Origin: Rhodanobacter fulvus Jip2
GTDB lineage: Bacteria; Pseudomonadota; Gammaproteobacteria; Xanthomonadales; Rhodanobacteraceae
NCBI RefSeq assembly: GCF_000264315.1
Contig: NZ_AJXU01000080.1
Coordinates: forward strand, 1-64,000
DNA length: 64,000 nt
Direction: 5' to 3'
The notes below the pieces were generated by a model. It was not told the DNA's origin, did no database searches, and saw only the letters and a program-made list of their open reading frames with translations. The translations under genes were made by a program, and so were the position numbers. Numbering within the stretch: position 1 is the stretch's first letter; the number at the start of each line of letters is the position of its first letter. Below, one piece after another: positions 18,355 through 25,879 of the stretch.

Positions 18355-20520
18355 TTACCAGCGGTAGCGCGCGCTGGCGGTCACGCTGCGCTCGTAGCCG
18401 TAGTAGCACCATGCGGCGCTGTTGCAGGCGGAGACGTACTCCTTGTCGAACAGGTTGCTGGCGTTCAACTGCAGCCGCCAGTCGCCTACGTCGTAATGCA
18501 CGGCGGCGTCGAACAAGGTGTACGAGGGCGTCTTCCACTCGTTGTAGATGTCGCCGTAATGGCTGCCGATGTAGCGCACGCCGCCGCCGAAACCGAAGCC
18601 CGCCAGCGGTCCGGCGACCACGGTGTAATCGAGCCCCAGCGAAGCCTGCTGTTCGGGCAGCAGCGCGATCTGCTTGCCCAGCGAGGGCAGGTCGTTGGTG
18701 CGGGTCACTTCAGAATCGCTGTACGTGTAACCGCCGTAGATGGCCAGGTGTGTGCCGAGATTCCAGCGGCCCTCCAGCTCCACGCCGCGCAGCCGCGTTT
18801 CGCCCTGCTGCACCTGGAACAGTGCGTGGTTCGGGTCGACCGTCAGCGAGTTCTGCTGGGTGATCTGGTAGGCCGCCAGGGTGACCAGGCCGTTGCCGCC
18901 GGCGGGCTGGTATTTCAGGCCGGCTTCGTACTGGTCGCCGGTGGTGGGTTTGAACGCGTTGCCGCCGAAGTTCGTGCCCACGGTGGGCTGGAACGAATGC
19001 GACCACGACACGTACGGCGCCAGCCCGTTGTCGAGCAGATAATTGACGCCCACGCGGCCGGAGAACGCGCGGTCGGTCTGCCCGACGCTGGTGCCGGCCA
19101 GCTGGTTGTCGGTGTCGGTGCGGACATGATCCTGGCGCCCGCCCGCGGTGATGCTCCAGCGGCCGACCTTGATCTGGTCCTGCAGATAGACGCCCAGTTG
19201 CGACTGCACCTGCACGGTGTGGACGGTGTACGCAGGCACGGTGACCGGGCTGCCGTAGACCGGGTCGAACACGTCCAGCCCGGTGACGCCGAAGTCGAAT
19301 GCGGAGGCGTAGTCGTCCTTGGCGCGGCGGTAGTCCACGCCGGCCAGCAGCGTGTGCTGCACACGGCCGTTGTCGAACACGTATTGCAGGTTGTTGTCGA
19401 CGCCGAAGGTCTTGGTGTGGTTCTCGTTCGGGAACAGGTAGCGCAGCAGCGTGCGGCCGTCGCCCAGCAGGCCGAACGCGCCCACGTTGGCACCGTTGTT
19501 GTCCACGTCGGCGGTGCCGTAGCGCAGGTTCTGGTTGAACGCCAGGCCGTTGGCGAAATCGTGGTGGAATTCGTAGCCGATCGAGGCCAGCGTCTTGTCG
19601 TAATCGTTCTGGCCCGGCTCTCCGGTGAAACGGTCGCGCGGGATCTTGCCGTGGGGGCTGGGCAGCAAGGTGCCTTCGGCGGGCAGGAAACCGGCGCCCG
19701 AGGCGGTCTCGGCTTTCTGGTAGCGCGACAGCAGCGTCAGCGAGGTGTTGTCGTCCGGCTTCCAGGTCAGCGCGGGGGCGAGGTAGTAGCGGTCGTCCTT
19801 GATGTAGTCGGTCATGGTGTCGCTGTTGCGCGCCAGGCCGGTGAGCCGGTACAGCACGGTGCCCGCATCGTTCAGCGGGCCGGCGAAATCGAAGGTGCCC
19901 TGGCGCAGGTCGAAACTGCCCACTTCCACGCCCACTTCGTGCAGCGGCTGCGCGGTGGGGCGCTTGCTCACCATGTTCACCATGCCGCCCGGCGGCATCG
20001 CGCCGTAGACCACCGACGACGGCCCCTTGATCACTTCCAGCCGCTCCAGCCCGTACGGCTCGATGCGGGTGATGCTGGTGCCCGAGCCTTCCGGCAGCGC
20101 CAGGCCGTCGAGATAACGCGCGGGAGTGAAGCCGCGCACCAGCATCCAGTCGCTGCGCGCGTCGGCGCCGTAGCCGCCGCCCTGCGCGCCGGCGGTGTAC
20201 CACACGGCTTCCTCGATGCCCTGGATGCCGCGCTGGCTCAACTGCTCGGCGGTGATCACCGACACCGACTGCGGGATCTCGATGATTGGCGTGTCGGTCT
20301 TGGTGACCGAATCGCTTTCCCGCGCGATCGGCGCTGTCACCTGCACGCCCGACAGCGCGGTGGCGGATTGCGGGGTGGATGCGGCGGCGTCATCGGCGTG
20401 GGCTGGAGTCACCATCGCCAGTGCGGCCAGCAGCGGCACGCCGAGCAGGGCGGCGCGGATGGCCTGGGGGAGGGACGGGCGGTGGCGCGCGGCGGCGGTC
20501 GGAGCGGGGGACGATGACAT
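18355..20520 (-). CDS. TonB-dependent siderophore receptor
   Basis: 721 residues. A long signal peptide ends near residue 43 (TPAHA). The plug domain (about 70-185) holds IPQSVSVITAEQLSQRG, VRGF, YGLERLEVIKGPSSVVYG and PGGMVNMVSKRP, all hallmarks of FhuA/FhuE/FpvA-type ferric-siderophore receptors. A 22-strand barrel follows and ends in the outer-membrane signature YRW. No FecA-type signalling extension is present, so it should not drive its own sigma/anti-sigma pair. The siderophore cannot be told from sequence. It is the first gene of a four-gene operon behind a promoter with a Fur box. Confidence 0.93.
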   Translation of the reverse strand: MSSSPAPTAAARHRPSLPQAIRAALLGVPLLAALAMVTPAHADDAAASTPQSATALSGVQVTAPIARESDSVTKTDTPIIEIPQSVSVITAEQLSQRGIQGIEEAVWYTAGAQGGGYGADARSDWMLVRGFTPARYLDGLALPEGSGTSITRIEPYGLERLEVIKGPSSVVYGAMPPGGMVNMVSKRPTAQPLHEVGVEVGSFDLRQGTFDFAGPLNDAGTVLYRLTGLARNSDTMTDYIKDDRYYLAPALTWKPDDNTSLTLLSRYQKAETASGAGFLPAEGTLLPSPHGKIPRDRFTGEPGQNDYDKTLASIGYEFHHDFANGLAFNQNLRYGTADVDNNGANVGAFGLLGDGRTLLRYLFPNENHTKTFGVDNNLQYVFDNGRVQHTLLAGVDYRRAKDDYASAFDFGVTGLDVFDPVYGSPVTVPAYTVHTVQVQSQLGVYLQDQIKVGRWSITAGGRQDHVRTDTDNQLAGTSVGQTDRAFSGRVGVNYLLDNGLAPYVSWSHSFQPTVGTNFGGNAFKPTTGDQYEAGLKYQPAGGNGLVTLAAYQITQQNSLTVDPNHALFQVQQGETRLRGVELEGRWNLGTHLAIYGGYTYSDSEVTRTNDLPSLGKQIALLPEQQASLGLDYTVVAGPLAGFGFGGGVRYIGSHYGDIYNEWKTPSYTLFDAAVHYDVGDWRLQLNASNLFDKEYVSACNSAAWCYYGYERSVTASARYRW

Positions 20521-20652
20521 GGAAACCCTGTTTCGAAGACGTGGGAGAAGCCGCGCGAGCGCCGCGTGGTCGACGGATCGACCGCGCCAAGGGCGCGCGA
20601 GGTTGTTTCCGCACCGGCCGCGACGACGGTGGGGAAACCGGCGTTTCGGTAG

Positions 20653-20695
20653 TGAGAATGGTTCTCATTATATAAGTGGCTGCGACGGACGGCAA
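20653..20695 (-). promoter_or_regulatory. Promoter and Fur box of the siderophore-receptor operon
   Basis: On the minus strand TTGCCG (20690-20695) and a perfect TATAAT (20667-20672) are exactly 17 bases apart. The palindrome TGAGAACCATTCTCA (20653-20667) abuts the -10 and would cover the transcription start. It closely matches the Fur operator (GATAATGATAATCATTATC-like). The receptor ATG is about 130 bases downstream. Iron-replete Fur should block this promoter. Confidence 0.75.
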
Positions 20696-20816
20696 TTGCG
20701 CCCGCGCGATGCGGGCGGAGCGGCGCGCGCGGGAATGCACGCCACGCGGGACGTGGCGCGCTCCGGTCGGGGTGCGTCGTTTCAGCGCACCCGCATCGCG
20801 ACGGTGCGGGTCGGGC

Positions 20817-21416
20817 TCAGGCGGCGTGCGGAATGAAGTGCAGCGCGGCCGAGTTCATGCAGTGGCGCAGGCCGGTGGGGCGCGGGCCGTCGTCGAAGAC
20901 ATGGCCGAGATGGCCGTCGCAGCAGGCGCAGTTGATGGCCGTGCGCTGCATGCCGAACTGGCGGTCGTCGTGTTGCGTGACATTGGTGCGGGCGATCGGC
21001 TGGTAGAAGCTGGGCCAGCCGGTGCCGGAGTGGAACTTGGTGGCTGCGTCGTACAGCGCGGTGCCGCAACCGGCGCAGCGGTACAGGCCCGGCGCGAACA
21101 GGTTCCAGTAGACGCCGGTGAACGCCTGCTCGGTACCCGCCTGGCGCAGGATGCCGAACGCCGGTGGCGACAACCGCTGCCGCCACTGCGCATTGCCGAG
21201 CACCAGCCGGGGCACCTCGCGCGCGCCGAGGTCGCGGCCGTCGTCGGCAAAAATCTCCAGCCGCACCTTGCCCGGCTTGCCGACCGGCGCCGCGGCGGCA
21301 GCGAAAAATCGCGGCGCCAGCAGAGCACCGCCCACCGCCAGCACGGCGCCGCCGGTCAGCGCCGCGCGCAGAAAGCGGCGCCGATCCATCGCGAGGGTTT
21401 CATCGATGCGTGACAT
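20817..21416 (-). CDS. msrB: Peptide-methionine (R)-S-oxide reductase MsrB, Tat-exported
   Basis: 199 residues. It reduces methionine-R-sulfoxide in proteins. Catalytic Cys 186 lies in GLRHCMNSA. The structural zinc is held by C114/C117 and C163/C166, and the HLGHVFDDGP signature is present. The N-terminus is a twin-arginine signal: RRRFLR at 12-17, a hydrophobic stretch, then Ala-rich residues to about 43. The enzyme should therefore be exported folded to the periplasm. Cytoplasmic MsrB proteins start near residue 70 here. No MsrA is fused or adjacent. The dipZ gene lies 139 bases upstream on the same strand and probably supplies electrons. Confidence 0.92.
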   Translation of the reverse strand: MSRIDETLAMDRRRFLRAALTGGAVLAVGGALLAPRFFAAAAAPVGKPGKVRLEIFADDGRDLGAREVPRLVLGNAQWRQRLSPPAFGILRQAGTEQAFTGVYWNLFAPGLYRCAGCGTALYDAATKFHSGTGWPSFYQPIARTNVTQHDDRQFGMQRTAINCACCDGHLGHVFDDGPRPTGLRHCMNSAALHFIPHAA

Positions 21417-21454
21417 GGCTTGCCTCCGTCGGGTGGGGTGACTTCGTTTTGTTG

Positions 21455-21546
21455 CAGGAGCGGCTTCAGCCGCGACGCTTTTGCGAATCCCGAATCCCGA
21501 ATCCCGAATCCCACCAAAAGCATCGCGACTGAAGTCGCTCCCACAG
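21455..21546. repeat. GAGCGRCTTCAGYCGCGATGC palindrome with heptamers in its loop
   Basis: Arms GGAGCGGCTTCAGCCGCGAC and GCATCGCGACTGAAGTCGCT face each other. The loop is filled by four copies of the heptamer GAATCCC (21484-21512). It lies between dipZ and msrB, so it would sit inside their shared transcript. Confidence 0.75.
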
Positions 21547-21555
21547 GTGTTCCGA

Positions 21556-23277
21556 TCAGCCGAAGGTGAACGCGAACGCCTGCGCGCCGGGGTCGAGGAA
21601 GGTGATCTCGAACACCCGCTCGCCGCTGCCGTTGGCCTGGCGCACCAGTTGGTACAGCCGCTGGTTGGTGATGACGCCGTTGCCCTGGGCGTCCGTATCC
21701 ATGCCGTGATCGGCGCCGGGCGCCTTGCCGTCGAGGGTGACGCGGAAGCGCACGGGCTTGCCGTCGCTGGCCGGGCCCAGCACCAGGTGCAGGTCGCGGC
21801 CGCGGAAGCGGTAGACGATGCGGCCGCCGGCCTGCAGCAGTTGGGCGTTCTCCGCGTGCACGTTCCAGCGGCCGTCCAGCGACCACTGGTTGGTGCCCAG
21901 CGCGTCGGGCGCGCGGTAATTCCAGACGTCGTCATGGGCGACCCGGCCACCCACGAAGTTGCGGGCGCGGGCATAGCCCACGTAGGTCTCGGGCGAGCGG
22001 GTGGCGTCGCCCGAATCGGCCGCTTCCACGCCGCGGCGGTCCGCGCTGACGTAGCCGCCGGGCAGGTCCTTGTAGCCCGCTTCGCTCAGCAACTGGCGGA
22101 TCACGTCCTCGCTTTCCGGGTAGGCGCCCTCGCCGAAATGGTGGTGACGGATGCGCCCCTGGGCGTCGATGAAGTAATGCGCCGGCCAGTATTGGTTGTT
22201 GAAGCCCTGCCAGATGGCGTAGTTGTTATCCAGCGCCACGGGGTAGTCCACGCCCAGGTCCTTCACCGCCTTCGCCACGTTGGCGGGGTCCTTCTCGAAC
22301 GCGAACTCCGGCGCGTGCACGCCGATCACCACCAGGCCGTGGTCCTTGTACTTGTCGGCCCAGCCCCGCACGTACGGCAGCGCGCGCAGGCAGTTGATGC
22401 AGGAGTAGGTCCAGAAATCGACCAGCACCACCTTGCCGCGCAGCGATTGCGCGGTCAGCGGCGGGCTGTTGAGCCACTGCGTGGCGCCGGCCAGCGACGG
22501 CAGTTCGCCTTCCACCGGCAAGGGCTCGCCGGGCTTCACCACGGTGGCGGCGTTGACCGGCGCCGGCCGTACCGCATCCAGCAGCTTCTGCTCGATGCCG
22601 CCGGTGCTGGCCAGCGATACGCGCGTCAGCAAGCCGGTATCCAGGCCCAGCGCGATTGCCGCCACGCCGCACAGCACCAGCGCGCCCAGCCCGCGACGCA
22701 GCCATTCACCCGCGCCCAGCGAGCGCTTCATCAGCGCAAACACCTTGCCGCCCAGCAGCAGCGCCAGGCCCAGCGAGGTGGCGGCGCCGGCGGCGTAGGT
22801 CAGCAGCAACAGCGTGGTCTGCACGCTGGCGCCGTTCAATGCGGCACCGGTCAGCAACAGGCCCAGAATCGGCCCCGCGCACGGCGCCCACAGCAGGCCG
22901 GTGGCGACGCCCAGGCCGGCGGAGGCCCAGATCGAATCGCGCTCGCCCGCCTGTTGGGTCAACCGCCCGCCCAGCGCCACGAACGGCCGGCTGATCCACT
23001 CGGCCACCCGCGTCGACAGCAGCGCCAAACCCAGGAACGCCAGCACCAGCAGCGCCACGTAACGCCCGTACTGGTTGGCATGGATGACCCAACCGCCGCC
23101 CAGTGCGGCCAGCGTGGCCACCGCCGCAAACGTGATCGCCATGCCCGCCAGCATCGGCAGGCCGTTGCGCTTGAAGGGGCGGTCCGAGCGGGCGAACACG
23201 AAGGGCAGCACCGGCAGGATGCAGGGACTGAGGATGGTCAGCACGCCGCCGAGGTAGGCAATGATCAACACGAGCAT
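21556..23277 (-). CDS. dipZ: DipZ: CcdA/DsbD membrane domain fused to a thioredoxin-like domain
   Basis: 573 residues that carry electrons from cytoplasmic thioredoxin to the periplasm. Residues 1-210 are a CcdA-type bundle with the two redox cysteines in LSPC (C19) and WAPC (C133). Residues about 255-400 are a TlpA/DsbE-like thioredoxin fold with CINC (C293, C296) in FWTYSCINCLRALPY. Residues about 440-573 form a beta-rich C-terminal domain as in mycobacterial DipZ. The gene is preceded by a 189-base leader with a long hairpin and a GTAACC-N16-CGAA promoter, and followed by the Tat-exported MsrB gene. The likely role is to re-reduce MsrB; cytochrome c maturation is the alternative, but no ccm gene is near. 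Confidence 0.9.
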   Translation of the reverse strand: MLVLIIAYLGGVLTILSPCILPVLPFVFARSDRPFKRNGLPMLAGMAITFAAVATLAALGGGWVIHANQYGRYVALLVLAFLGLALLSTRVAEWISRPFVALGGRLTQQAGERDSIWASAGLGVATGLLWAPCAGPILGLLLTGAALNGASVQTTLLLLTYAAGAATSLGLALLLGGKVFALMKRSLGAGEWLRRGLGALVLCGVAAIALGLDTGLLTRVSLASTGGIEQKLLDAVRPAPVNAATVVKPGEPLPVEGELPSLAGATQWLNSPPLTAQSLRGKVVLVDFWTYSCINCLRALPYVRGWADKYKDHGLVVIGVHAPEFAFEKDPANVAKAVKDLGVDYPVALDNNYAIWQGFNNQYWPAHYFIDAQGRIRHHHFGEGAYPESEDVIRQLLSEAGYKDLPGGYVSADRRGVEAADSGDATRSPETYVGYARARNFVGGRVAHDDVWNYRAPDALGTNQWSLDGRWNVHAENAQLLQAGGRIVYRFRGRDLHLVLGPASDGKPVRFRVTLDGKAPGADHGMDTDAQGNGVITNQRLYQLVRQANGSGERVFEITFLDPGAQAFAFTFG

Positions 23278-23291
23278 GAGGGTCGTCCGCT

Positions 23292-23460
23292 AGGGGGGGG
23301 TGGGAGGTAGAAACCAAGGGAGCGAGGTGAAGCGCTTCTGGTCGGGTTTTTCGATCGTTTGAGGAAGATAGCCGTAGCTATCTGACGAGAAGGAGCGGAA
23401 AACCCGGCCAGAAGCGCAAAGCCGCAGCCCCTTGCGTTTCTGCCTCCCACCCTCCTGGGG
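23292..23460. repeat. Long imperfect inverted repeat in the dipZ leader
   Basis: Two arms of about 60 bases pair with roughly four matches in five. GGTGGGAGGTAGAAAC on the left pairs with the reverse complement of GTTTCTGCCTCCCACC on the right, and CGCTTCTGGTCGGGTTTT with AAAACCCGGCCAGAAGCG. In the middle is a small perfect hairpin, AGATAGC-CGTA-GCTATCT. No transposase is present. It lies wholly between the minus-strand promoter at 23473-23498 and the dipZ start codon, so it would be transcribed as a structured leader. Confidence 0.7.
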
Positions 23461-23472
23461 GTCTGTCAGGTA

Positions 23473-23498
23473 TTCGTCGTACCGTGCGGTGCGGTTAC
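23473..23498 (-). promoter_or_regulatory. SigF-type promoter facing dipZ-msrB
   Basis: On the minus strand GTAACC (23493-23498) and CGAA (23473-23476) are separated by exactly 16 bases. The same pattern precedes sigF and the methionine-rich peptide gene. It fits the GTAACC-N16-CGAA type I recall for Caulobacter sigma-F. Transcription would start near 23466 and run to dipZ at 23277. Confidence 0.72.
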
Positions 23499-23511
23499 AC
23501 GTTCGGGCGAG

Positions 23512-23537
23512 GTAACCCTGGCGGCGCGTGCAGCGAA
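23512..23537 (+). promoter_or_regulatory. SigF-type promoter facing sigF-nrsF
   Basis: GTAACC at 23512-23517, a 16-base spacer, then CGAA at 23534-23537. Transcription would start near 23544, about 23 bases before the sigF ATG. It is back-to-back with the dipZ promoter: the two -35 elements are 13 bases apart. Autoregulation of sigF follows if the motif is read by SigF. Confidence 0.72.
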
Positions 23538-23566
23538 TGCAGGGTGAGAAAGTTTTGCCGGAGTAA

Positions 23567-24229
23567 ATGTTGCAGCCCTTGACCGCCGCGGGCCCGATGG
23601 TCTCTGATGATGCGCTCCCCCGTCGATCGAGCGCCGGATACCGCGTGCCAGTCAGCCCCGCCACCAGCACCATCGAAACCGCCGACCAGCGTCGGGCGGC
23701 ATGGATGGCGGCGGCGCAGGCCGGCGATCGGGTGGCGTACGAGAAGCTGCTGGCCGATTCGATCCCGCTGATCCGCGCGGCCGCACGGCGGCAGGGCGTG
23801 GCGCGGGATCATGTCGATGACGTGGTGCAGGAAACCCTGATCACAGTGCATCGCGTGCGTCATACCTACGACCCGTCGCGCTCGTACGAGGCCTGGCTCA
23901 ACGCCATCGCCAGCCGCCGTGCCATCGATGCGCTGCGCAGCCGCGGACGCCGCGACAGCCGCGAGCTGCACGACGCCTTCGCGCTGGATCGCCACCCCGA
24001 CGTCGACGACGCCAGCGCCGCCAGTGAGCGCCAGCAGGATGCGCAACGCCTGCGCGCGGCAATCGATGAATTGCCACAGGGCCAGCGCGAGGCGCTCGAA
24101 CAACTGGGTTTGCGCGAACGCACGCTGGCCGAAGCGGCCGAGCAGACCGGTCGCAGCACCGGGTCGCTGAAAGTGAACCTGCATCGCGGGCTGAAATCGC
24201 TGCGCCGCCATTTCAACAGAGAACCTTGA
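23567..24229 (+). CDS. sigF: ECF sigma factor of the SigF/NrsF type
   Basis: 220 residues; region 2 (about 45-115) includes ARDHVDDVVQETLITVHRVR and YEAWLNAIASRRAIDALR. Region 4 (about 160-215) has ELPQGQREALEQLGLRERTL, then the helix-turn-helix LAEAAEQTGRSTGSLKVNLH. Pairing with a DUF1109/NrsF gene (4-base overlap) places it in the SigF class that senses metal or oxidative/chlorine stress. ATG 23567 was chosen because GGAG and the predicted promoter fit it; ATG 23597 and GTG 23645 are later alternatives, nearer the usual family length. Its promoter, the dipZ promoter and the peptide-gene promoter share one motif. Confidence 0.88.
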   Translation: MLQPLTAAGPMVSDDALPRRSSAGYRVPVSPATSTIETADQRRAAWMAAAQAGDRVAYEKLLADSIPLIRAAARRQGVARDHVDDVVQETLITVHRVRHTYDPSRSYEAWLNAIASRRAIDALRSRGRRDSRELHDAFALDRHPDVDDASAASERQQDAQRLRAAIDELPQGQREALEQLGLRERTLAEAAEQTGRSTGSLKVNLHRGLKSLRRHFNREP

Positions 24230-24888
24230 GCCGCATGTCCCACGCACCCCGCCATGAAACCCTGATCCACGCGCTGGGCGCTGGCCTGGTGCCGGTGCGC
24301 CGGTTGCCGCCGCCGTGGCTGCGCACGCTGGGGTGGCTGCTGGTGGTGGCGGCGCTGGCCGTGGCCTTGCTGTGGCGCTATGGCACCGGCATCGCGATGG
24401 AGCGCTGGCAGGCGTCGCCGGACATGGGCTGGGCCACCGCCGGCGCGGTGCTTACCGCGATTTGCGCCGCATGGGCGGCGTTCGTCTCGGGCATGCCCGG
24501 CCGGCGCGCGATCTGGGCCTGGCTGCCGTTGCCGCCGGCCCTGCTGTGGATCGGCGCCAGCGGCCTGGGTTGCCTGCGCAGTTGGGTGGAGCCGGCGGCG
24601 CAGTTGACCCGCACCCATCCCGCGCCCGACTGCCTGTATTTCATCCTCGCGTTTTCGATTCCGCTGTCGGCCCTGCTGATCTGGCTGCTGCGCCGCGCCT
24701 GCCCGTTGCGGCCGGTGCTGACCGCGGTGCTGATCGGCCTGGCCAGCGCGGCGGCCTCGGCCAGCCTGCTGGAGATCTGCCACGCCTACGGCGCCGCCGC
24801 CACCGACCTGCTGACCCACGCCGCCGCCGTGGCCGTGGTGGTGGCGGCGAATGCCGCGATGGGCGGGCGCCTGCTGTCGAGGCACTGA
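24226..24888 (+). CDS. nrsF: NrsF-family (DUF1109) membrane anti-sigma factor
   Basis: 220 residues with six hydrophobic helices, the DUF1109 layout. Conserved cysteines appear at C116 (GCLRSW), C136 (PDCLYF), C159 and C185 (EICHAYGAAATDLLTH). In Caulobacter and Azospira, NrsF holds SigF inactive, and cysteine chemistry is thought to release it under heavy metal or oxidant stress. The start overlaps the sigF stop (GAGCCG region), a coupling typical of sigma/anti-sigma pairs. The last His-containing loop could add metal sensitivity, but that is a guess. Confidence 0.88.
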   Translation: MSRMSHAPRHETLIHALGAGLVPVRRLPPPWLRTLGWLLVVAALAVALLWRYGTGIAMERWQASPDMGWATAGAVLTAICAAWAAFVSGMPGRRAIWAWLPLPPALLWIGASGLGCLRSWVEPAAQLTRTHPAPDCLYFILAFSIPLSALLIWLLRRACPLRPVLTAVLIGLASAAASASLLEICHAYGAAATDLLTHAAAVAVVVAANAAMGGRLLSRH

Positions 24889-24917
24889 TCGGCACTGCAG
24901 CGGCAACGATCCGGGAC

Positions 24918-24943
24918 GTAACCACGGTCGCGTCGCTGGCGAA
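24918..24943 (+). promoter_or_regulatory. SigF-type promoter of the methionine-rich peptide gene
   Basis: GTAACC at 24918-24923, a 16-base spacer, CGAA at 24940-24943. It is the third exact copy of the pattern seen in front of sigF and dipZ. It lies 30 bases after the nrsF stop and gives the peptide gene its own strong output separate from sigF-nrsF. Confidence 0.72.
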
Positions 24944-24977
24944 GAAAGGGATGGAGACACACGTCTCCATCCCTTTC
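24944..24977 (+). promoter_or_regulatory. Perfect 15-bp hairpin at the 5' end of the peptide mRNA
   Basis: GAAAGGGATGGAGAC (24944-24958) and GTCTCCATCCCTTTC (24963-24977) pair perfectly around ACAC. No T-tract follows, so it is not a standard terminator. The predicted start site falls in the left arm, so at least part of the stem would cap the transcript. The ribosome site CAGGAG follows at once. A stabilising 5' hairpin or an attenuator for read-through from nrsF are the two simple readings. Confidence 0.65.
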
Positions 24978-24994
24978 CTGCAGGAGTCAACGCC

Positions 24995-25294
24995 ATGAAA
25001 AACACGCTGTTCGCCGCCCTGATCCTCGCCGCCGGCGGGCTCGCCTTTACCTCGGCTTTCGCGCAGGACGCGATGGCGCCCGGTTCCAGCACCGCGATGG
25101 CGCATGGCGATGCCATGCACGCCAACGCCATGAAGGGCGCCATGTCGCACGAGGCCATGCAGAAAGACGTCATGCAGAAAGACAGCATGAAGATGGATGC
25201 CATGCACCACGGTGCCATGAAGCACGACGCCGGAAAAACGGGCGCCATGAAGAAGGATGGCATGAAGAAAGCCGACGGGAAGATGGGCGGCTGA
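24995..25294 (+). CDS. Secreted methionine-rich peptide (MxKDx-type, MrpX-like)
   Basis: 99 residues. The signal peptide is cleaved near residue 23 (TSAFA). The mature part of about 76 residues holds 14 Met, spaced every three to six residues in units such as AMQKD, VMQKD, SMKMD, AMKKD and GMKKA. It has many Lys, His and Asp but no Cys. It fits the pentapeptide MxKDx family and the periplasmic MrpX peptide, which SigF controls in Azospira and which soaks up hypochlorite as methionine sulfoxide. Cu(I) binding by the Met/His pattern is the main alternative. AGGAG lies 8 bases before the ATG. It has its own SigF-type promoter. Confidence 0.85.
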   Translation: MKNTLFAALILAAGGLAFTSAFAQDAMAPGSSTAMAHGDAMHANAMKGAMSHEAMQKDVMQKDSMKMDAMHHGAMKHDAGKTGAMKKDGMKKADGKMGG

Positions 25295-25306
25295 ACACGC
25301 CGCGCC

Positions 25307-25401
25307 GGGCGGGCACCGCGATGCCGTGCCCGCCCAGACGCGCGTTCGAGCGCCGTATTCGGGCCATTCCTACGCCGCCGTACGGTCACCGTGCGGCGGC
25401 G
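25307..25401. terminator. Two strong hairpins after the methionine-rich peptide gene
   Basis: The first is a perfect 10-bp stem, GGGCGGGCAC (25307-25316) with GTGCCCGCCC (25326-25335). The second is CGCCGCCGTACGG (25373-25385) with CCGTGCGGCGGCG (25389-25401), one G-T wobble and a 3-base loop. Neither is followed by a T-run, so termination is probable rather than proven. They close the stress island before rsfS. Confidence 0.5.
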
Positions 25402-25489
25402 TGGCCACCTTGACTTCCCTTTGCGGCCGGGACGGTATACTGCGCTCGCGCCATTTTGCGCAGCGATATCGCCATCGAGGCTCTCCCTT

Positions 25490-25879
25490 TTGAGTACTGC
25501 CCGCACCAACAAGGCCGTCACCACGGCCACCCTGCGTCAATCCGTCGTCGATGCGCTCGACGAACTGAAAGCCAAGGACGTGCGCGAGATCGACGTCCGC
25601 GGCAAAACCTCCATCGCCGACCTGCTGGTGATCGCTTCAGGCACCTCGGCCCGTCACGTCAAATCCATCGCCGACGAAGTCCAGAAATTCGCCAAGAAAG
25701 CGGGTGTGTATCCGCTGGGCGTGGAAGGCGAAGGCGAAGGCGAGTGGGTACTGGTGGATCTGGGCGACGTGATCGTGCACGTGATGCTGCCGCGCATCCG
25801 CGAGTTCTATGGCCTGGAACGGCTGTGGACCGTGGGTGATCGCGACGAGGGTGAAAGCGAAGCGGCGCAGGCTGGGTAA
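25490..25879 (+). CDS. rsfS: Ribosomal silencing factor RsfS
   Basis: About 129 residues. It binds ribosomal protein uL14 and blocks subunit joining in starvation. Conserved parts are VVDALDELKAKDVREIDVRGKTSIADLLVIASGTSARH, seen in pieces, then GEWVLVDLGDVIVHVMLPRIREFYGLERLW, the family core. No ATG precedes the conserved region closely; TTG 25490 with GAGG upstream is the best start. A TATACT at 25436 may be its own -10, which it would need because it is separated from nadD. rlmH follows after a repeat-filled 270-base gap. Confidence 0.93.
   Translation: MSTARTNKAVTTATLRQSVVDALDELKAKDVREIDVRGKTSIADLLVIASGTSARHVKSIADEVQKFAKKAGVYPLGVEGEGEGEWVLVDLGDVIVHVMLPRIREFYGLERLWTVGDRDEGESEAAQAG

Follow-up and report, generated by a model that had tools for sequence, protein, structure and literature searches.

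A SigF/NrsF-type locus of Rhodanobacter fulvus as the probable hub of an envelope-oxidation regulon with methionine sulfoxide repair

The window analysed here, the first 64,000 nucleotides (nt) of contig NZ_AJXU01000080.1 of Rhodanobacter fulvus Jip2, holds at 20817-25294 a compact group of genes for a SigF-like extracytoplasmic function (ECF) sigma factor, an NrsF-type (DUF1109) anti-sigma factor, a secreted methionine-rich peptide and, divergently oriented, the membrane protein DipZ and the exported methionine-R-sulfoxide reductase MsrB. We describe the conservation of this locus among the Rhodanobacteraceae, the reach of its promoter motif in the genome, and a possible role for the encoded proteins in the repair of oxidized envelope methionines.

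Gene content of the locus

The genes and elements of the locus, with their profile matches, are as follows.

20817..21416, minus strand: msrB, exported twin-arginine methionine-R-sulfoxide reductase, 199 amino acids (aa); PF01641 (SelR) 159 bits and TIGR00357 165.5 bits, both above cut-off
21556..23277, minus strand: dipZ, 573 aa; CcdA-like membrane domain, periplasmic CINC thioredoxin-like (redoxin) domain and C-terminal Thioredoxin_10
23278..23472, minus strand: dipZ leader, 195 nt, with a long imperfect hairpin
23473..23498, minus strand: ECF16-type promoter of dipZ-msrB, exact copy of GTAACC-N16-CGAA
23512..23537, plus strand: ECF16-type promoter of sigF-nrsF (autoregulation), exact copy of GTAACC-N16-CGAA
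23567..24229, plus strand: sigF-like ECF sigma factor, 220 aa; Sigma70_r2, Sigma70_r4_2 and sigma70-ECF above cut-off
24226..24888, plus strand: nrsF (DUF1109), anti-sigma factor; PF06532 66 bits, cut-off 26.8
24918..24943, plus strand: ECF16-type promoter of the peptide gene, exact copy of GTAACC-N16-CGAA
24944..24977, plus strand: perfect 15-bp inverted repeat (4-nt loop) that follows the -10 element immediately, a hairpin placed where the peptide mRNA begins or close to it
24995..25294, plus strand: mrpX/bcrX-like gene, secreted Met-rich MxKDx peptide, 99 aa; TIGR02953 59.8 bits, cut-off 41

An ECF sigma gene followed by a DUF1109/NrsF gene, the arrangement by which we recognise the module, is present, and the profile matches bear out what the initial annotation had called at these places, namely the ECF sigma factor, the NrsF anti-sigma factor, the cysteine-free Met-rich peptide, and the divergent dipZ and twin-arginine msrB. 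NrsF, called from a TTG start (the ATG at 24235 is an alternative), reaches the broader PF06532 family and not, at 17.1 bits, the NCBIfam equivalog AntiSigF_NrsF (NF042994, cut-off 300). The DsbD_TM match of DipZ is barely over its cut-off (27.3 against 27.1 bits), and its Thioredoxin_10 match scores 164.9 bits. The twin-arginine stretch of MsrB reads DRRRFLRAA, and RRxL or RRxxL also occurs near the start in 58 of 65 relatives. A TonB-dependent-receptor-like gene, named by eye, adjoins msrB at 18355-20520 on the minus strand.

MsrB displays the SelR domain, the CxxC pairs and the catalytic cysteine in RxCxN that mark its family; its cysteines 113, 116, 162, 165 and 185 do not vary in any of 66 rows, the window's own among them, and residue 131 is threonine in all 66. 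We take Cys185 to be the catalytic cysteine, and position 131 to be the one usually occupied by the recycling cysteine. Cysteines 19, 133, 293 and 296 of DipZ, invariant in 62 of 62 rows, presumably constitute the membrane-domain pair and the CxxC of the periplasmic thioredoxin. Of 69 NrsF rows, all have Cys116 and Cys136, and 59 have Cys185, which is replaced in the other 10; Cys136 and Cys185 were matched to OsrA C129/C179 (NrsF C131/C181) by spacing alone, without alignment.

Promoter conservation and unlinked targets

Of 147 family genomes sampled, 70 gave an NrsF match at E <= 0.001, that of G006 being weak. From 70 regions around NrsF matches outside the window's genome, two distant paralogues (L107, L108) and a locus cut by a contig end (L100) were left out, giving 67 usable loci. 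GTAACN-N16-CGAA precedes sigF in all 67 (52 exact, 15 changed at the sixth base only), and spacers of 13-15 and 17-19 gave no exact match before sigF in any of them. Before dipZ, or msrB where dipZ is missing, the motif stands in 66 of 66 cases, being exact in 52, altered by one change in 10, and exact with a 15-base spacer in 4. Divergent from sigF lie both dipZ and msrB in 60 loci, msrB alone in 5, dipZ alone in 1 (at a contig end) and neither in 1, so that msrB adjoins sigF-nrsF in 65 of the 67 and dipZ in 61. At the level of sequence, this conservation of promoters backs the initial proposal that SigF and NrsF co-regulate these genes through GTAACC-N16-CGAA.

Among the best 80 of 140 loci from named relatives, the sigma gene, dipZ and msrB all lie inside the full upstream flank in 61, and the closest named NrsF among the matches listed, from Rhodanobacter sp. 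Root480, is 96-97% identical. Within 20 NrsF-less genomes, dipZ homologues (E <= 1e-60) occur in six (one full-length, five partial), with the motif in none of the fetched stretches, and a plasmid search with NrsF returned three partial Methylobacterium/Methylorubrum matches only. In the alphaproteobacterial Rhodopila globiformis (L349), an MsrB homologue is encoded some 2 kb downstream of an NrsF of 56% identity, and the sequence behind nrsF has an exact motif at the expected peptide position.

The three exact copies that the initial annotation reported before sigF, dipZ and the peptide gene were all located, against 0.02 expected in the 64-kb window from shuffles. The motif has already been published as the Caulobacter SigF site GTAACC-N16-CGAA (PMC3511200), as the ECF16 consensus tGTAACc-N16-CGAA (PMC3420878), and as (T/C)GTAAC-N17-CGAA in Brucella (PMC8315932), such that the window's sites are expected ECF16 promoters and no new element (statements from these papers, and from PMC4623255 and PMC7907618 below, reflect the available parts of their texts). 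Over the whole genome (3.88 Mb), the scan that the initial annotation had suggested finds seven exact sites, against three for the reversed pattern, with msrA among the targets. Outside the window, one exact site precedes this exported msrA, one precedes the heat-shock sigma gene rpoH, and two lie inside coding sequence (L001, L004); the latter are probably due to chance and were set aside. Allowing one mismatch gave 154 sites against 152 in the reversed control, and was discarded as useless for finding regulon members.

The exported msrA, unlinked to the locus, has its exact motif 65 nt upstream, and provides the partner for the S form that had been predicted to lie behind the same motif. Its product has a PMSR domain (PF01625, 194.1 bits), the GCFWG signature, and a lipoprotein-type export signal, LSAC, recognised by eye. 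The msrA search covered 30 of the 70 NrsF-bearing and 20 of 77 NrsF-less genomes. In all 30 of the former, the motif precedes the best-matching homologue, in 28 as an exact copy 30-155 nt before the start and in 2 as GTAAC[TG]-N16-CGAA; among 28 msrA homologue loci in the latter, none has an upstream site at two mismatches or fewer, although at L161 a two-mismatch match overlaps the msrA start, and the sequence of L166 does not extend upstream of the gene. PF00174 (MsrP/YedY, sulfite oxidase family) matches 13 of 30 genomes and has no match in the window's genome, which points to a repair arm of MsrA, MsrB and DipZ, and agrees with the initial suggestion that YedYZ has been replaced. Further, msrB, dipZ and msrA lie together on one plasmid of Burkholderia pyrrocinia (L362, 4187-7447) and one of Cupriavidus necator (L363), and this clustering supports DipZ serving both reductases; the 12-kb stretches of these plasmids hold no ECF sigma gene, NrsF homologue or motif.

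A gene of the catalase family (PF00199, tested on the G067 protein) is, judging by its upstream sequence, a likely further target. A homologue was found in 20 of 30 genomes, preceded by an exact motif in 10, by a GTAACG version in 4, and by a motif with a 15-base spacer in 2; the window's genome is one of the 4 with GTAACG, its site lying 97 nt upstream. The exact site 132 nt upstream of rpoH in the window's genome (G000 C37:85792-85817, L003/L167) was not counted towards the regulon, as only 2 of 30 genomes have an exact motif there (at 132 and 137 nt), the second being the genus mate G039; another genus mate, G146, has a one-change variant with a 15-base spacer. The rpoH leader contains a CIRCE element in 26 of the 30. 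In a further genome (G040, L233/L236, C24:15703-15802), two exact sites precede a pair of divergent genes, one for a CcdA-like protein and the other for a thioredoxin-like protein that is exported; these genes may represent a second donor pair for periplasmic reductases, in an arrangement resembling that discussed for Bradyrhizobium.

The methionine-rich peptide and its mRNA leader

Beyond a signal peptide placed by eye, the mature peptide has 14 methionines and six histidines in 75 residues, and no cysteine. Of 34 NrsF-bearing genomes searched, 19 have TIGR02953 peptides (14 over cut-off), and their genes are preceded by an exact motif in 14 cases, by one with a single change in 2, and by none in 3. 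Ten sampled genus mates have no TIGR02953 peptide beside nrsF; seven of the ten carry it elsewhere, six behind an exact motif and one behind a motif with a single change. Twenty NrsF-less genomes gave one sub-threshold match, without the motif. On the strength of these sequence comparisons the peptide is an optional component, often unlinked and usually behind the same promoter, and the constant core is MsrA, MsrB and DipZ. The initial annotation had placed a cycle of peptide, MsrB and DipZ at the heart of the system; this view gives way before the counts, since msrB adjoins sigF-nrsF in 65 of the 67 loci and dipZ does so in 61, and an msrA behind the motif occurs in 30 of 30 genomes, against a peptide in 19 of 34.

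The perfect inverted repeat behind the -10 element of the window's peptide promoter has counterparts in many relatives. Twenty-four peptide leaders were scored, leaving out three with misassigned starts (L072, L201, L202) and a duplicate (L208), with folding z-scores taken from plain letter shuffles that do not preserve dinucleotides. Over the first 36 nt the median z is -3.1, and 16 of the 24 fall below -2, as do 4 of 30 msrA leaders, none of 68 sigF leaders (a set including the contig-cut L100, whose leader is doubtful) and 1 of 61 dipZ leaders. An alignment with MAFFT left the hairpin arms unaligned, which precluded counting covariation pair by pair; in an arm swap, the hairpins' own arms were 95% paired and swapped arms 57%, a difference biased by each stem having been picked to pair. 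Compared with Rfam, the stretch 20500-25600 matched no family, even with E values as high as 1 allowed. We infer that the hairpin may act as a 5'-end stabiliser of the peptide mRNA, raising peptide yield. A literature search for a hairpin on Met-rich peptide or MrpX mRNA found none; subscription papers lay outside its scope, making this weak evidence of novelty. The dipZ leader in turn contains inverted repeats at 23315-23372/23377-23434 and 23295-23323/23427-23455 (predicted fold -95 kcal/mol), and a 19-base piece of its hairpin arm occurs once in the window.

Known ECF16 systems and the proposed regulon

Judged by its genes and promoters, the locus works like, and belongs to, the ECF16/NrsF kind, of which several members have been described. 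Azospira-type perchlorate islands pair SigF/NrsF with MrpX and YedYZ, MrpX being described as part of a methionine-cycling hypochlorite defence, and two other perchlorate islands encode exported MsrA and MsrB homologues (PMC4623255; the Azospira suillum PS system is known to us through citations of Melnyk et al., 2015, mBio). SigF/NrsF, a Met-rich peptide and putative periplasmic methionine cycling are common to the Rhodanobacter locus, whereas the latter has DipZ-MsrB in its hub, an unlinked MsrA, and no YedY/MsrP-family match in its genome; lacking a match to that reductase family, it falls outside the YedYZ-type cycle. In Brucella melitensis, BcrS/AbcS-BcrXQP answers hypochlorous acid (HOCl), and BcrX is encoded in an operon with MsrPQ-like genes (PMC8315932). 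The ECF16 sigma factor, DUF1109 anti-sigma factor, MxKDx peptide, and GTAACC...CGAA before both the sigma gene and the peptide operon are shared, but the repair arm is MsrPQ-like in Brucella, and MsrA/MsrB/DipZ in Rhodanobacter.

EcfF/OsrA of Bradyrhizobium japonicum controls Msr genes together with a DsbD-like protein and a thioredoxin, proposed to feed periplasmic Msr (PMC3420878). It resembles our locus in setting an ECF16 pair over Msr genes and a DsbD-like donor, but the donor is divided between two proteins, the targets are unlinked, and a Met-rich peptide is not mentioned in the available text. SigF/NrsF of Caulobacter crescentus, with an identical promoter (GTAACC-N16-CGAA) and the same NrsF type, differs in answering chromate and cadmium and in its targets, which include DUF692, DUF2063, DUF2282 and DoxX genes and the YedY-like CC2748; msrA homologues were unaffected, as far as the available text states (PMC3511200). 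RpoE2-MsrAB of Haemophilus influenzae, which HOCl induces, and SigE-MsrAB of Neisseria likewise place an ECF sigma factor over periplasmic Msr of the thiol type (PMC7907618), although in Haemophilus the anti-sigma factor is a cytoplasmic protein of 67 aa and not NrsF, and MsrA and MsrB are fused in one protein. PSPTO_1043 of Pseudomonas syringae, whose paper names Rhodanobacter, belongs to a ChrR-type system and was dismissed as irrelevant. A literature search with Rhodanobacter in its scope, which excluded subscription papers, gave no title on this system among the matches listed. Earlier publications had already given the motif, and had suggested both the export of MsrA and MsrB in perchlorate islands and the supply of a periplasmic Msr by a DsbD-like donor under the control of an ECF16 sigma factor; what appears new is the thiol-based variant with its regulon, and the 5'-end hairpin frequent in peptide mRNAs.

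The gene set, the conservation of its promoters, the co-occurrence with NrsF, the catalytic residues, and the export signals recognised by eye together indicate that this locus is very probably the hub of a regulon of the ECF16 (SigF/NrsF) type that answers envelope oxidation, comprising a repair arm of MsrA, MsrB and DipZ, a catalase-family protein, and an optional sink peptide. The signal, sigma binding, electron flow, peptide oxidation and redox cycle that we infer would proceed as follows. A periplasmic oxidant would alter NrsF, probably at its conserved cysteines, and free the sigma factor, which would read GTAACN-N16-CGAA before sigF-nrsF, dipZ-msrB, the unlinked exported msrA, the catalase-family gene and, where present, the peptide gene. 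Methionine sulfoxide, in the peptide as well as in periplasmic proteins, would then be reduced by MsrA where it is of the S form and by MsrB where it is of the R form. DipZ would draw electrons from thioredoxin in the cytoplasm and pass them through the membrane to its CINC domain, and from there to both reductases. Thiol-based MsrA/MsrB/DipZ would in this way fill the place of the molybdoenzyme system MsrP/MsrQ (YedYZ) of Azospira and Brucella.

Several observations weigh against this reading. Threonine at the usual recycling-cysteine position of MsrB probably implies reduction by a one-cysteine or alternative route, and the 5 of 67 loci lacking dipZ beside msrB must be served by another donor. 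If Cys185 of NrsF is the counterpart of Cys179, the sensing residue of OsrA, its loss in 10 of 69 rows means that sensing cannot always need it. The strict control for msrA amounts to four loci against thirty, as just four of the 28 control loci (L139-L142, 57-63% identity) are close orthologues, the rest being distant homologues, paralogues or fragments. Four of the 20 catalase-family genes lack the motif. By count, the exact motif is not enriched in four relatives taken together (24 sites against 29 for the reversed pattern), and 10 of those 24 have no evident target; 14, however, precede sigF, dipZ, msrB, msrA, the peptide gene, the catalase-family gene or a CcdA/thioredoxin pair, and the case for the regulon therefore rests on where the sites lie. 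For the hairpin, 8 of the 24 peptide leaders are not below -2, some (L049, L105, L203) show no advantage over shuffled sequence when the entire leader is folded, and several of the leaders come from close relatives of one another.

Those motif counts, with the parity of one-mismatch sites and their control, and the two of seven exact sites in the window's genome that fall inside coding sequence, would also fit a SigF that acted on its own neighbourhood only, the motif at msrA and other unlinked genes being residual or fortuitous. We consider this highly improbable, given the motif before unlinked msrA in every NrsF-bearing genome covered and at the same place in none of the 20 NrsF-less ones, and its presence before the unlinked peptide genes of genus mates. 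A regulon answering metal stress (copper, cadmium or chromate), in which the Met- and His-rich peptide binds Cu(I) and Msr repairs metal-provoked damage, would be consistent with the Caulobacter response to chromate and cadmium and its control of DUF692/DUF2282 genes (PMC3511200), with the identification of DUF2282 peptides as copper-binding bufferins (PMC12452194), and with the peptide's own composition. This appears unlikely, since Msr enzymes and their donor are the targets that stay constant, HOCl is what the Brucella system responds to (PMC8315932), and the Azospira one is described as a hypochlorite defence (PMC4623255); nor did we recognise by eye any DUF692, DUF2282 or metal-efflux gene at the seven exact sites, whose neighbours were not family-searched. 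The peptide might alternatively serve some unrelated envelope role and merely share the promoter, in keeping with the lack of a TIGR02953 match in 15 of 34 NrsF-bearing genomes, and with the fact that sequence alone reveals no activity. We regard this too as doubtful, in view of the placement of its homologue BcrX in an HOCl-responsive operon with MsrPQ-like genes (PMC8315932), and of the part described for MrpX in the methionine-cycling hypochlorite defence of the Azospira-type island (PMC4623255).

The envelope-oxidation regulon, as compared here across genomes, suggests that one type of sigma factor can drive, from the same promoter, two chemically different repair arms, either MsrP-type or MsrA/MsrB/DipZ, and that the constant part is the repair arm and not the Met-rich peptide. 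DipZ fusion proteins gain a concrete, testable pair of partners in MsrA and MsrB, and the 5' hairpin indicated on many peptide mRNAs is the least expected part of the system. For the family, we hold at even weight the broader proposition that the Rhodanobacteraceae possess a full thiol-powered periplasmic methionine cycle, run by the ECF16 regulon with MsrA, MsrB, DipZ and the catalase-family protein. The peptide would be an add-on to it, gained or lost independently, and its mRNA would start with a stem-loop kept in position but varying in letters behind the SigF -10 element, stabilising or regulating the message for high, on-demand peptide output.

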